Of a DNA stretch of 64,000 bases, positions 21,691-29,974 are shown piece by piece. The notes beneath the pieces are model-generated. The model ran no database searches and was not told where the DNA came from. It saw only the letters and a program-made list of their open reading frames with translations. The first letter of the stretch is position 1. Each line of letters starts with the position of its first letter. The stretch is taken from the NCBI RefSeq assembly GCF_014638745.1, contig NZ_BMFO01000001.1, forward strand, positions 248,001-312,000, given 5' to 3'. A program made the position numbers and the translations under genes. The DNA is from Arenimonas maotaiensis. GTDB taxonomy: Bacteria; Pseudomonadota; Gammaproteobacteria; Xanthomonadales; Xanthomonadaceae.

Positions 21691-22778
21691 TGCGCGCCGA
21701 CGCCGCCGATCTGGCACCGCAGCCGCTGGCCACCGCCACCGCCCTGCCCGCGCGTTTCTACACCGGCGAGGCGACGGCCGATCTCGACCAGCGGGCGGTG
21801 TTCGACCGCCACTGGCAATACATCTGCCACGCCAGCCAGATCGGCGATGAGGGCGATTACACGGTGGCGGCCATGGGCCGCCTGCCGGTGATCGTGATCC
21901 GCACCGCCGACGGCCTGCGCGGCTACCACAACGTCTGCCGGCACCGTGCCGGCCCGATGGCGCACTGCCCCGGCAAGGGCGCCAAGCAGCTGCGCTGCAA
22001 GTACCACGGCTGGACCTACAATCTGGACGGCAGCCTGCGCACCGCGACCGAGATGAAGGACGTGGCCGACTTCGACATCGCCGACGTGCGCCTGCCGGAA
22101 GTGCACGTGCGCGAGTTCGAGGGCCTGGTGTTCGCCGCCGCCTCGAACGATGCGCCGCCGTTCGAAGAGTACGTGGAAGGCATCGCCGAACGCCTGGCGG
22201 TCAGCGGCCACCGTCTGGTCGACCTGCGCTTCCACCAGCACCTGCATTACGACATCGACTGCAACTGGAAGACCTACGTCGACAATTATCTGGAAGGCTA
22301 CCACGTGCCGCACGTGCATCCGGAGCTCAACAAGCTGCTGGATTACCGCAGCTACGTGACCGAAACCAAGCGCTGGCATTCCATGCAGTTCAGCCCGCTG
22401 GAAAGCGGCGACGACCTGTACGGCTCGGGCGAGGCGCTGTACTACTTCATGTACCCGAACACCATGCTCAACATCCTGCCGGGCCGCCTGCAGACCAACC
22501 GGGTGCTGCCGTTACCGGGCAACCGCTGCCGCGTGGAGTTCGATTTCTTCTACGTGGAGAGCAAAGGCGAAAGCGACGACATCCGCCGCCAGCGCGACCT
22601 GGAATTCTCCGATGTGGTGCAGGACGAGGACATCCGCATCTGCATCGACGTGCAGAAGGGCCTGGACAGCGGCTCGTATCACGCCGGCCGGCTGAACCCG
22701 CTACGCGAGAACGCCCTGCACCACTTCCAGGAACTGCTGCGCGCGGATTACCGCGCGCACGGCGGATCAGCCGGCTGA
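21690..22778 (+). CDS. Rieske-type ring-hydroxylating oxygenase alpha subunit
   Basis: A 362-aa oxygenase. The Rieske [2Fe-2S] domain has CRHRAGPM and CKYHGWTY (Cys-x-His ... Cys-x2-His), residues ~80-110. The catalytic domain has the non-haem iron facial triad region DNYLEGYHVPHVHPEL. It resembles the choline monooxygenase/carnitine oxygenase (CntA) branch more than classical aromatic dioxygenases. No reductase or ferredoxin partner is adjacent, so the electron donor and substrate are unknown. The ATG shares one base with the preceding TGA. A strong terminator follows. Confidence 0.88.
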   Translation: MRADAADLAPQPLATATALPARFYTGEATADLDQRAVFDRHWQYICHASQIGDEGDYTVAAMGRLPVIVIRTADGLRGYHNVCRHRAGPMAHCPGKGAKQLRCKYHGWTYNLDGSLRTATEMKDVADFDIADVRLPEVHVREFEGLVFAAASNDAPPFEEYVEGIAERLAVSGHRLVDLRFHQHLHYDIDCNWKTYVDNYLEGYHVPHVHPELNKLLDYRSYVTETKRWHSMQFSPLESGDDLYGSGEALYYFMYPNTMLNILPGRLQTNRVLPLPGNRCRVEFDFFYVESKGESDDIRRQRDLEFSDVVQDEDIRICIDVQKGLDSGSYHAGRLNPLRENALHHFQELLRADYRAHGGSAG

Positions 22779-22802
22779 TCCATGCGCTAAAGATCCAAGT
22801 TC

Positions 22803-22834
22803 ACGCGGCGCACTTCGGTGCGCCGTGTTTTTTG
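22803..22834 (+). terminator. Rho-independent terminator after the Rieske oxygenase gene
   Basis: A stem of about 11 bp (ACGCGGCGCAC with GTGCGCCGTGT) closes a TTCG tetraloop and is followed by TTTTTT. It lies between the plus-strand oxygenase and the convergent MFS gene. Confidence 0.92.
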
Positions 22835-26956: not shown

Positions 26957-28642
26957 CTAGATCGCCGCCACCGCGGCGTTGTGCACGCCGGCCACCGCGC
27001 GGCCGGAAGGATCCGCCATGGTCGCGAACGCGGCATCCCAGGCGATCGCCGCCGGTGACGAGCACGCGATCGACTTGCCGCCCGGCACCGTGTTCGCGCA
27101 GGCGTCGCCCGGGAAGATGTCCTCGAAGATCCGGCGATAGAAATACGCCTCGCGGGTCTGCGGCGGGTTGATCGGGAAGCGTTGCTCGGCTGCGGCGAAA
27201 TCCGCATCGCTCACGTGGGCCTCGGCATGCGCCTTCAGGCCATCGATCCAGCCGTAGCCCACGCCATCGCTGAACTGCTCCTTCTGCCGCCACAGGATTT
27301 CCTGCGGCAGGTAACCCTCGAAGGCCTCGCGCAGGACCGACTTTTCCATCTTCCCGCCGCCGCTCATCTTGTGCATCGCGTCCATGCGCATCGCCACGTC
27401 CATGAACTCGACGTCCAGGAACGGCACCCGCGGCTCCACGCCCCAGGCCATCATCGACTTGTTGGCGCGCAGGCAATCGAAGCTGTGCAGCGCGTCGAGC
27501 TTGCGCACCAGCTCCTCGTGGAATTCGCGCGCGTTCGGTGCCTTGTGGAAGTACAGGTAGCCGCCGAACAGTTCGTCGCTGCCCTCGCCGCTCAGCACCA
27601 TCTTCACGCCCATCGCCTTGATCCGGCGCGCCAGCAGGAACATCGGCGTCGATGCACGGATGGTGGTGACGTCGTAGGTCTCGATATGGCGGATCACTTC
27701 CGGCAGCGCATCCAGCCCTTCGGCGAAGCTGTAGGTGAAACCGTGATGCACGGTGCCCAATGCATCCGCGGCGATCTGCGCGGCAGCGAGATCCGGCGAA
27801 CCCTCCAGGCCAATCGCGAAACTGTGCAGGCGCGGCCACCAGGCTTCGCCCTTGTCGTCGTCCTCCACCCGCTTGCGCGCGAACTTGGCGGCGCAGGCCG
27901 CGACCAGCGAGGAATCCAGCCCACCCGAGAGCAGCACGCCGTACGGCACGTCGCTCATCAGCTGGCGATGCACCGCGCGCTCGAAGGCCTCGCGCAGTTC
28001 GGCCTTGTCCGCGGCCACGCCTTGGACCGCGTCATAGTCGCGCCAGGCGCGCTTGTACCAGTGCACCAGCTCGCCGGTCGCGCTGTCGTAGACATGGCCG
28101 GGCGGGAACGCCGCCACGTCGTCGCAGACGCGCACCAGCGATTTCATCTCCGACGCCACCCACAGGCGACCATCGGCATCGTGGCCCCAGTACAACGGAC
28201 AGATGCCCATGTGGTCGCGCGCGATCAGCACGCGCTTCGCGGCTGCATCCCACAATGCGAAAGCGAAGATGCCGTTGAGCCGGCCCAGCCAGGTCTCGGG
28301 CGCTTCGCCGTCGCGATGCAGGGCGTTGATCACTTCGCAGTCGGAGCCGGTCTGGAACGCGTAGGGCTTGGCGAGGCGGCGTTCGAGGTCGCGGTGGTTG
28401 TAGATCTCGCCGTTCACCGCCAGCGCAAGGTCGCCATCGGCGGAATGGATGGGTTGCGCGCCACCGGCGGGATCGACGATCGCCAGCCGCTCGTGGACCA
28501 GCAGCGCGTTCGCATCCACGTGCACCCCGCTCCAGTCTGGCCCACGGTGCCGCTGGCGCGCGGACAGCGACAGTGCCAGTGGCCGCAGGGGATGCAGGTC
28601 CGCGCCGGGGCGGAGGTCGAAGACGCCGAGGATCGAGCACAT
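26957..28642 (-). CDS. asnB: Glutamine-dependent asparagine synthetase B
   Basis: AsnB makes asparagine from aspartate, ATP and glutamine in the cytoplasm. The 561-aa product starts with Met-Cys, exposing the catalytic Cys2 of the class II glutaminase domain (CSILGVFD; RHRGPDWSG; VNGEIYN). The synthetase domain has the PP-loop GVLLSGGLDSSLVAA and later LSGEGSDELFGGYLYFHK. The start at 28642 is fixed by Cys2 and by AAGGA 9-13 bp upstream; an in-frame upstream Met would bury Cys2. A leader peptide and terminator precede it (see those entries). A GC-rich hairpin follows its stop codon. Confidence 0.96.
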   Translation of the reverse strand: MCSILGVFDLRPGADLHPLRPLALSLSARQRHRGPDWSGVHVDANALLVHERLAIVDPAGGAQPIHSADGDLALAVNGEIYNHRDLERRLAKPYAFQTGSDCEVINALHRDGEAPETWLGRLNGIFAFALWDAAAKRVLIARDHMGICPLYWGHDADGRLWVASEMKSLVRVCDDVAAFPPGHVYDSATGELVHWYKRAWRDYDAVQGVAADKAELREAFERAVHRQLMSDVPYGVLLSGGLDSSLVAACAAKFARKRVEDDDKGEAWWPRLHSFAIGLEGSPDLAAAQIAADALGTVHHGFTYSFAEGLDALPEVIRHIETYDVTTIRASTPMFLLARRIKAMGVKMVLSGEGSDELFGGYLYFHKAPNAREFHEELVRKLDALHSFDCLRANKSMMAWGVEPRVPFLDVEFMDVAMRMDAMHKMSGGGKMEKSVLREAFEGYLPQEILWRQKEQFSDGVGYGWIDGLKAHAEAHVSDADFAAAEQRFPINPPQTREAYFYRRIFEDIFPGDACANTVPGGKSIACSSPAAIAWDAAFATMADPSGRAVAGVHNAAVAAI

Positions 28643-28686
28643 CGTGGAAATCCTTGTGGAGGTGTTGTTATTCGAAGGGGAAAACG

Positions 28687-28712
28687 AAAAAACCCGCACT
28701 TCTCAGTGCGGG
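28687..28712 (-). terminator. Intrinsic attenuator terminator in the asnB leader
   Basis: On the minus strand CCCGCACT pairs perfectly with AGTGCGGG over a GAGA loop and is followed by TTTTTT. It lies between the leader-peptide stop codon and the asnB ribosome binding site, 45 bp before the asnB ATG, so it would stop transcription before asnB. The 5' arm can alternatively pair with GCGGGTCGG inside the leader ORF. Confidence 0.9.
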
Positions 28713-28723
28713 CTTCGGAGAGA

Positions 28724-28804
28724 TCAGCGTGTGACGCGCGCGCTAATCGCCGACCCGCGGGGGCTGGCGTTATTGCGATTGTTATTGGCGCACACGAAAG
28801 TCAT
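28724..28804 (-). CDS. Asn-rich leader peptide of an asnB attenuator
   Basis: A 26-codon ORF, MTFVCANNNRNNASPRGSAI then SARVTR. Codons 7-12 are AAT AAC AAT CGC AAT AAC: five Asn codons in six. It ends 11 nt before the 5' arm of the terminator. Codons 16-18 (CGC GGG TCG) contain GCGGGTCGG, which can pair with CCGAAGCCCGC at 28708-28718 and so disrupt the terminator. This is the architecture of ribosome-mediated attenuators (his, thr, ilv, trp leaders): with scarce Asn-tRNA the ribosome stalls at the Asn run, the antiterminator forms and asnB is expressed. Function is inferred from sequence; the match between codon identity and enzyme product is strong support. Confidence 0.8.
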   Translation of the reverse strand: MTFVCANNNRNNASPRGSAISARVTR

Positions 28805-28810
28805 GGGGTG

Positions 28811-28840
28811 ATCTTAACCCGCCTCTGCGCCGCTGCGCAA
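28811..28840 (-). promoter_or_regulatory. Candidate promoter of the asnB leader, overlapping the dapE stop codon
   Basis: Minus strand TTGCGC (28840-28835), 18-bp spacer, TAAGAT (28816-28811). The -10 overlaps the dapE TAA. The expected start of transcription, about 7 nt after the -10, coincides with the leader ATG at 28804, which would make the leader peptide mRNA leaderless. There is no Shine-Dalgarno between the -10 and the ATG, consistent with that. Confidence 0.5.
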
Positions 28841-29974
28841 CGGTTGCGCCAGCAACCGTTCCACCAGCGCCAGGTAAAGCGCCGGCAGGCGCTCCAGGTC
28901 CGCGACCGCCACGTGTTCGTCGACCTTGTGGATGCTGGCGTTGACCGGCCCGATCTCGATGCACTGCGCGCCCAGCGGCGCGATGAAGCGAGCATCCGAG
29001 GTGCCGCCACCGGTGCTTTCCTCGGGCGGCGCACCGGCGAATTCCCCGAGCACGGCGCGCGCGGCCGCACGCAACGGGCCTTCCGGGGTATGGAACGGTT
29101 CGCCGCCGCGATGCCACCGGATCACGAAATCCAGGCCGTATTCGCGCAGGATGGTCTCGCACTCCGCTTCCAGCTGCACCGCGGTCCAGTTCGGGTTGTA
29201 GCGCAGGTTGAACAGCACCTGCAGCTCGCCCGGGATCACGTTGTTGGCGCCGGTACCCGCGTGGATGTTGGACATCTGCAGGCTGGTCGGCGGGAAGCTT
29301 TCGTAGCCCGCGTCCCACTGCTTCCACGCCAGTTCGGCCAGCGCCGCCAGCGACTGGTGGATCGGGTTGCGCGCCTTTTCCGGATAGGCCACGTGGCCCT
29401 GGATGCCCTTCACCGTCAGCGTGGCGGACAGCGTGCCGCGACGACCGACGCGCAGCAGGTCGCCAAGCGTCGATTTCGACGACGGTTCGCCGGTGATGCA
29501 CCAGTCGATGCGCTGGCCGCGCTCGCGGAAGGTGTCGGCGACCTTGCGCACGCCGTCGATGGCATCGCCCTCCTCGTCCGAGGTCAGCAACAACGCCACC
29601 GTCCCCGCATGGTCCGGATGCGCGGCAACGAAGGCCTCCAGGGCAACGACGAACGCAGCCACGCTGCCCTTCATGTCCGCTGCGCCGCGTCCGTACAGCA
29701 CGCCGTTGCGCACTTCGGGCACGAACGGATCGCTGGCCCAATCCCCGTGCGGCCCTGGTGGCACCACATCGGTATGCCCGAGAAGCACCAGCACCGGCCC
29801 GTCGCCGCTGCCATGCGTCGCCCACAGGTTGTCGACCTCGCCGAAGCGCAGGTGTTCGCAGGCGAACCCGGCACACTGCAAGCGCTGCGCGATCAGCTGC
29901 TGGCAGCCTGCATCGTCCGGGGTGATCGACGGCCGGGCGATCAATTCCTGGGTCAACGCCAACACGTCGCTCAT
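28814..29974 (-). CDS. dapE: Succinyl-diaminopimelate desuccinylase
   Basis: DapE removes succinate from N-succinyl-LL-diaminopimelate in lysine and peptidoglycan precursor synthesis. The 386-aa product is of family length (~375). M20 peptidase motifs are in order: [15 protein letters not shown] (zinc His/Asp), [15 protein letters not shown] (bridging Asp), [13 protein letters not shown] (catalytic Glu-Glu), and [12 protein letters not shown] near the C-terminus. The start chosen lies 10 bp after the upstream arsC-like gene with GAGG before it. It is in a minus-strand run with dapD and the arsC-like gene, so two lysine-pathway genes sit together. Confidence 0.96.

Follow-up and report, generated by a model that had tools for sequence, protein, structure and literature searches.

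In Proteobacteria, the trp, his, thr, leu, ilv and phe attenuators share a design in which a short ORF with many end-product codons precedes mutually exclusive 2:3 and 3:4 hairpins, with the terminator placed before the biosynthetic gene. Leaderless short ORFs rich in Cys codons are known from mycobacteria, and asn genes in Firmicutes are frequently under T-box control. In the alphaproteobacterium Sinorhizobium meliloti, the 5' end of the trp attenuator RNA rnTrpL is the ATG of the leader ORF, which makes this RNA leaderless (PMC7298713). Here, we describe a leader ahead of asnB in a stretch of 64,000 nucleotides from Arenimonas maotaiensis (contig NZ_BMFO01000001.1, positions 248,001 to 312,000; referred to below as the window). 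This leader is very probably a ribosome-mediated transcription attenuator, which would set asnB read-through according to the charging of Asn-tRNA(Asn). Its parts, in the order in which they would be transcribed, are the following:

28835..28840, minus strand: -35-like element TTGCGC, within the 3' end of the upstream dapE (TTG recurs at the same place in relatives)
28811..28816, minus strand: -10-like element TAAGAT, after a spacer of 18, ending 6 nt before the leader ATG and overlapping the dapE stop codon (pattern match, conserved place)
28724..28804, minus strand: leader ORF, 26 amino acids and TGA (direct reading; an Asn-rich ORF ahead of asnB is also present in relatives)
28769..28786, minus strand: putative control codons AAT AAC AAT CGC AAT AAC, codons 7-12 (direct reading)
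28744..28772, minus strand: predicted 1:2 protector hairpin of the untranslated leader (fold prediction alone)
28759..28763, minus strand: run of five Cs, six in the relatives L072, L082, L083 and L084 (sequence comparison)
28750..28758, minus strand: region 2, candidate antiterminator 5' arm, GCGGGTCGG (duplex energies, alignment, covariation)
28708..28718, minus strand: region 3, candidate antiterminator 3' arm, CCGAAGCCCGC, overlapping the terminator 5' arm (duplex energies, alignment, covariation)
28687..28716, minus strand: intrinsic terminator (regions 3:4) and T run (terminator scan, covariation, shuffles)
28643..28657, minus strand: asnB ribosome-binding region ACAAGGATTTCCACG (anti-Shine-Dalgarno pairing better at asnB starts than at leader starts)
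26957..28642, minus strand: asnB, asparagine synthase B (glutamine-hydrolysing), 561 amino acids (family match)

The leader ATG is read directly at 28804 on the minus strand and the TGA at 28726-28724, and the 26-residue peptide is MTFVCANNNRNNASPRGSAISARVTR. An earlier note on this DNA had described a 26-codon ORF with the six control codons at positions 7-12, a perfect 8-bp hairpin followed by T6, and then asnB, all of which can be read directly: the codons run from 28786 to 28769, the terminator core is the perfect 8-bp stem CCCGCACT-GAGA-AGTGCGGG (28712-28693) followed by T6 (28692-28687), and the downstream product matches NCBIfam asparagine synthase B (NF006949, 3.9e-257). Its proposal that region 2 (28758-28750) is able to pair with region 3 (28718-28708), overlapping the terminator 5' arm, was likewise confirmed. 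The upstream gene is dapE (TIGR01246, 3.8e-156), whose stop codon ends 9 nt ahead of the leader ATG.

Runs of Asn codons as dense as this are rare. Across the six frames of the window, 4 of 112,113 stop-free 9-codon stretches hold at least five Asn codons, all four being overlapping views of the leader, and the 285,393 flanking bases of 41 related loci hold none. A scan of public genomes with the AsnB protein gave 80 loci that were kept, 42 from Lysobacterales (41 by record title, plus L017, titled only Pseudomonadota) and 38 from elsewhere. The 42 include Lysobacter, Xanthomonas, Stenotrophomonas, Pseudoxanthomonas, Luteimonas, Thermomonas, Arenimonas, Dyella, Rhodanobacter, Fulvimonas and Frateuria; their best upstream nine codons hold five to seven Asn in 32 loci, four in 6 and three in 4 (L006, L034, L041 and L046), and every one of these leaders has a terminator-like hairpin behind the Asn run. 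Outside the order, 15 of the 38 loci reach three Asn per nine codons, 6 reach four and none reaches five. Because 21 of these 38 also reach three or four, such a count alone is little proof, and for the 10 of 42 leaders in that range the case for a putative attenuator rests on placement, hairpin and promoter. Four loci titled Holophagales, Rhodococcus, Deltaproteobacteria and Sphingobacterium (L019, L025, L031 and L079) carry an AsnB 63-80% identical (best segment) to that of the window and have no leader; the first three are counted among the 38, and all four may reflect contamination, mislabelling or transfer. Together with leaders from further genomes, and after removal of those identical in every letter, the Lysobacterales loci make up a set of 87 distinct leaders, with at least five Asn in the best nine codons in 64, four in 17 and three in 6 (the window has five). 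One further batch of 40 genomes included 10 that gave no locus and lie outside the counts, as does locus L104, from genome G331, which is outside the 87. Absence of the ORF or its Asn codons from relatives, which the earlier note had named as speaking against its proposal, is not what is seen: both are conserved across the 87 leaders.

How consistently the leader accompanies asnB was followed through 398 genomes of the order, 305 of which have an AsnB match at E <= 1e-150. The leader model was run on the same 398 and is unspecific by itself, with some match at E <= 0.01 in 373 of them and ilv leaders reaching 5.6e-8, and adjacency to asnB was therefore checked. By comparison of the two result tables by eye, the window's family has 120 genomes with AsnB, 3 of them divergent (E about 1e-230), and a leader match of 1.3e-8 or better in 116 of the other 117, G331 being the sole exception. 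Family f12 has 112 genomes with AsnB, 6 of them divergent, and a leader match at 1e-8 or better in 102 of the other 106; in the remaining four the leader was found adjoining asnB (G223, locus L133; G247, L137; G382, L159; and G394, by coordinates). In family f2 it is present in 3 of 3 genomes, every time adjoining asnB. In all 112 genomes with both coordinates tabulated, the match is on the asnB strand and 23-221 nt ahead of the gene, and the leader also adjoins asnB in 9 of 9 further low-scoring genomes; G331, G246, G103 and G379 have no leader-model match near asnB. The nine genomes of the window's family that lack an AsnB match in the E <= 1e-150 search have a best leader-model match of 5.3e-6. 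Alignment across relatives, which the earlier note had proposed, finds the Asn run, the terminator, the alternative stem and their spacing kept in at least three families (f1, f12 and f2).

Several loci stand apart from this pattern. Within the window's family, G331 alone has an AsnB of the window type and no adjoining leader, and the sequence ahead of its asnB does not resemble that of its relatives. Three genomes of the window's genus (G001, G011 and G012) have AsnRS, no AsnB match at E <= 1e-20 and a best leader match of 8.8e-5, so that leader and asnB are apparently missing together. Among 25 loci with a divergent AsnB or from other families (L107-L131), 22 have at most three Asn per nine codons (L125 and L127 could not be oriented and are outside that count), and L117 (G094, family f7) has an Asn-rich leader, MFAIYNTINTTNNRLLRSAGSF, and a terminator before an AsnB 63% identical to the window's. 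By eye, the promoter-like site of L117 lies about 25 nt before the ATG, so that this leader does not look leaderless, and we take it to be an older or independent version. A class-wide search with the leader model found matches at E <= 1e-6 in 13 of 369 genomes, of which 4 belong to the window's family. The other 9 come from outside the order; their loci (L168-L176) have at most three Asn per nine codons and ordinary terminators, and were set aside. A second match in the window (22720-22833) was also rejected, as it covers the terminator and last part of a gene resembling aromatic-ring/betaine oxygenases; the best NCBIfam match of this gene (3.6e-40) is under that model's cut-off.

The terminator is the most strongly supported of the RNA structures. 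A scan of 28600-28900 found one site, compared with a shuffle average of 0.3, and the window leader as a whole folds at -49.2 kcal/mol (200 shuffles: -36.8 +/- 3.6; z -3.45) into a 1:2-type hairpin and the terminator. All 87 leaders contain a terminator-like hairpin (86 by script, L156 by eye); the script's criterion is permissive, with 73% of shuffles containing something that passes, and none of 860 shuffles (10 for each of 86 leaders) scores as high as the real hairpin. At least five Ts fall within the 8 bases after the stem in 69 of 86 leaders. In the covariation alignment, which comprises 86 leaders (L156, whose asnB start the script had misplaced, is left out), 93.8% of cells in the terminator stem are paired and there are 143 two-sided changes, compared with 46.2 in shuffles (0 of 500 as high). 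A hairpin of this kind might simply be the terminator of the upstream gene, with an Asn-rich ORF arising by chance or low complexity and an asnB promoter further downstream, and a terminator right after dapE, which ends so close to the leader in the window, would be ordinary. However, only 4 of 42 loci (L007, L008, L009 and L041) have a dapE match whose end is 310 nt or less from asnB, whereas leader and hairpin are present in the others too; in 32 of 86 leaders, fewer than 45 nt separate the hairpin from the asnB ATG; the Asn run is unequalled in flanking DNA; the leader stop codon keeps a fixed distance from region 2 in most relatives, as described below; and a sigma-70 consensus scan of 28600-28900 reported no promoter, albeit missing the conserved site before the leader as well. 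We consider a plain terminator very unlikely.

For the antiterminator, RNAalifold on the first alignment returned the terminator only, and the 2:3 pairing was therefore tested by duplex energies and named pairs. The 2:3 stem is paired in 81.1% of cells, a value reached by 0 of 500 shuffles and compared with 30-44% for slid versions of the stem. Its two-sided changes number 37, compared with 22.5 in the 500 shuffles, none of which reaches the real count. Altogether it exceeds shuffles on three of five covariation measures and has fewer compensatory changes than the terminator; it is not above shuffles in the number of pairs with two-sided change, which 478 of 500 shuffles reach, or in further pair types, where 489 of 500 do so. 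Own 2:3 duplexes average -22.2 kcal/mol and swapped ones -18.8, with none of 10,000 permutations as good; these shuffle and permutation controls ignore relatedness, and the covariation rests on few lineages. One pair changes from G-C to A-U in seven sequences, with U in region 3 and A in region 2 in all seven, and since the terminator 3' arm has kept its G in five of them, the change follows the antiterminator and not the terminator; the seven sequences are related and may represent one or two events. Taken alone, the 2:3 pairing of the window (-17.4 against -13.7 +/- 2.3 kcal/mol) is modestly better than shuffles, 13 of 200 of which are as good, and 16 of 43 single duplexes are matched by at least 10 of 200 shuffles, including those of the window (13) and L017 (138). 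It is thus comparison among relatives, and not the window sequence by itself, that supports the predicted 2:3 pairing. The 1:2 hairpin is predicted less securely: at least four of the five core bases pair upstream in 57 of 86 leaders, three of five do so in the window, and the mean z is only -0.56.

The spacing of these elements is what an attenuator would call for. All 86 leaders have an Asn codon whose first base is 12-36 nt ahead of the GCGGG core of region 2, and in 61 of them the last Asn codon precedes this core by 14 or 17 nt. Measured from the start of the core, the distance to the stop codon is exactly 13 nt in 60 of the 86 and no more than 25 nt in 85. Given the usual size of the ribosome footprint, which is the basis for judging what is covered, a ribosome stalled at the Asn run is predicted to leave region 2 free and one at the stop codon to cover it. 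In the proposed model, transcription would start from the putative promoter at the end of dapE, at or within one or two bases of the leader AUG. When charged Asn-tRNA is scarce, a ribosome would stall on the Asn codons and region 2 (GCGGG...) would stay free to pair with region 3, so that the terminator is blocked and RNA polymerase enters asnB. When Asn-tRNA is plentiful, the ribosome would reach the stop codon just past region 2 and cover it, allowing the 3:4 terminator to form, and if the leader is not translated at all, region 2 would be held in the predicted 1:2 hairpin, again with termination as the outcome. The peptide-attenuator design that the earlier note placed ahead of asnB is in this way supported by the 87 leaders, their hairpins, covariation and spacing, with the window's own copy being atypical.

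The window is the single exception in stop position: its distance from core start to stop codon, 32 nt, is greater than in any of the other 85 leaders. Its C-run is one base shorter (five Cs, compared with six in the four relatives listed above), which puts the codons behind the Asn run into another frame and brings the TGA to 7 nt before the terminator stem. The stop-codon step of the model would accordingly be altered in this genome, and the displaced stop could reflect either genuine weakening or, as a one-base homopolymer difference, a mistake in the assembly. It is possible, if on the doubtful side, that the Asn attenuator operates in relatives and that this genome's copy is degenerate, a reading compatible with the attenuator as such. 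A ribosome at a stop codon beside the terminator would no longer cover region 2 and may hinder region 3, and both the isolated position of the window among the 86 leaders and the additional C in L072, L082, L083 and L084 fit degeneration; against it, the Asn run, region 2, region 3 and the terminator are intact, and a one-base difference in a homopolymer can be an assembly error. The frame shift also bears on whether the leader peptide might be a functional small protein with the RNA structures being secondary. Conservation of the ORF in many genera fits such a role, and a trans-acting leader peptide, peTrpL of Sinorhizobium, is reported (PMC7298713). However, the C-terminal part of the window's peptide is frame-shifted whereas the RNA pairing letters remain, the peptides vary between groups in length and at both ends outside the Asn run, and for five leader peptides no family was matched in NCBIfam and none over cut-off in Pfam, which together make a functional peptide very unlikely indeed.

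For the attenuator, codon choice within the leader may matter as well. AAT makes up 216 of 458 Asn codons in leaders and 54 of 339 in asnB. The choice and density of control codons set attenuator sensitivity, as argued in PMC1183508, and the AAT preference in leaders may serve this purpose. Arg codons recur in the run and dual Asn/Arg control was considered, and it was rejected, as Ala is as frequent there (91 versus 84). All 21 genomes examined, including the one from which the window comes, have an AsnRS match over cut-off, and charged tRNA would therefore be able to report free Asn.

The leader mRNA itself is probably leaderless, with transcription starting at the AUG, this being the simplest reading of the promoter placement. 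A TTG... element, followed after 16-19 nt by.A...T ending 5-8 nt before the leader start codon, is present in 64 of 87 leaders, compared with 1.7 expected from shuffles, which ignore relatedness, the pattern having been defined after viewing the sequences; the same test on the asnB start finds 2 of 87. This recurring pattern emerged only through comparison of relatives. Of the 23 leaders that miss its strict form, 17 show TTGC and a variant -10 (e.g. TCTAGT or TTTAGT). The CAGGAT of Lysobacter could also be a weak Shine-Dalgarno sequence, with the TTGC 17-18 nt upstream favouring a -10. The 64 leader starts with the promoter pattern show no Shine-Dalgarno enrichment: their mean anti-Shine-Dalgarno energy is -3.80 (shuffles -4.12), with 21 of 64 at -5 or lower, compared with -6.28 and 57 of 64 at the corresponding asnB starts. 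The positions -6 to -1 before the leader ATG are GC-rich and conserved in relatives, with C at -1 in 62 of 64. A GC-rich stretch between the -10 element and the start is also found in promoters under stringent control, and a second layer of regulation is possible. A similar architecture is seen at two loci of the same family, L177 (G021) and L178 (G035), where leaders rich in Leu, Val and Ile codons (LVVLVLITSPPGAG and ILVLVLITQPTGAG, respectively) lie upstream of an ilvC-like gene; in L177 this gene matches ketol-acid reductoisomerase over its first 70 residues (5.8e-24). Both have TTGACA, 17 nt, a weak -10 and then 7-8 nt to the ATG, and thus may be leaderless too, which suggests that leaderless leader peptides may be a general style of attenuation in Lysobacterales.

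Asparagine might alternatively be sensed by a T-box, a riboswitch or an RNA-binding protein, with the ORF being incidental, as the frequent T-box control of asn genes in Firmicutes could lead one to expect. Between 28300 and 29100, however, no T-box match was obtained at E up to 10 and no Rfam family reaches its gathering threshold; the best, Leu_leader (16.7 bits against 50, over the leader), is itself a peptide attenuator, and Thr_leader (14.3 bits against 55) lies on the opposite strand. What is conserved is above all an Asn run that can be translated, together with the terminator/antiterminator pairing, and sensing by a ligand- or tRNA-binding RNA or by an RNA-binding protein is extremely unlikely. 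The ribosome-mediated attenuator proposed here also appears to be new in its specificity. In the full-text literature searched, a scope outside which most subscription papers lie, no asparagine or asnB attenuator was found. Term look-up in PMC1183508 and PMC1262725 gave no mention of asparagine or Asn, and that of PMC2965389 none of asparagine or asnB, its single 'asn' being run-together author names. Asn specificity and the proposed control of asnB are therefore new as far as this literature was searched. On a narrow balance we also favour the broader view that the leaders form an order-wide family of Asn-specific attenuators, undescribed as far as searched, with a leader peptide read from a leaderless mRNA. 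Asparagine would join the amino acids sensed through leader-peptide attenuation, and the attenuator would offer an explanation for how asnB is regulated in Xanthomonas, Stenotrophomonas, Lysobacter and Rhodanobacter. If leaderless, the RNA could be loaded by a ribosome once its 5' end emerges, coupled to RNA polymerase from the first nucleotide, and the synchronisation of ribosome and polymerase, which is central to attenuation theory, would become testable without a 5' untranslated region. Leaders this small are easily missed: NCBIfam has no family matching the five peptides tried, and Rfam none that the RNA matches at threshold.

By its sequence features, the 1:2 hairpin aside, the asnB leader appears to belong with the ribosome-mediated leader-peptide attenuators. 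Like the trp, his, thr, leu, ilv and phe attenuators, it combines a short ORF in which end-product codons abound with exclusive 2:3 and 3:4 hairpins, a less securely predicted 1:2 hairpin and a terminator before the biosynthetic gene; unlike them, it has Asn as its putative control codon and asnB as its target, and matches no Rfam leader family. The putative ilv leaders L177 and L178 are close enough to be matched by the Asn-leader model (5.6e-8 and 6.0e-7), whereas they carry Leu, Val and Ile codons and precede a different gene. With the mycobacterial Cys-rich ORFs it would share a leaderless leader peptide that senses a single amino acid, the two differing in Cys and in phylum. Finally, S. 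meliloti trpL resembles it as a leaderless attenuator RNA and differs in its Trp codons, in its target trpE(G) and in belonging to the Alphaproteobacteria, with the transcription start site being stated for trpL and predicted for the asnB leader.
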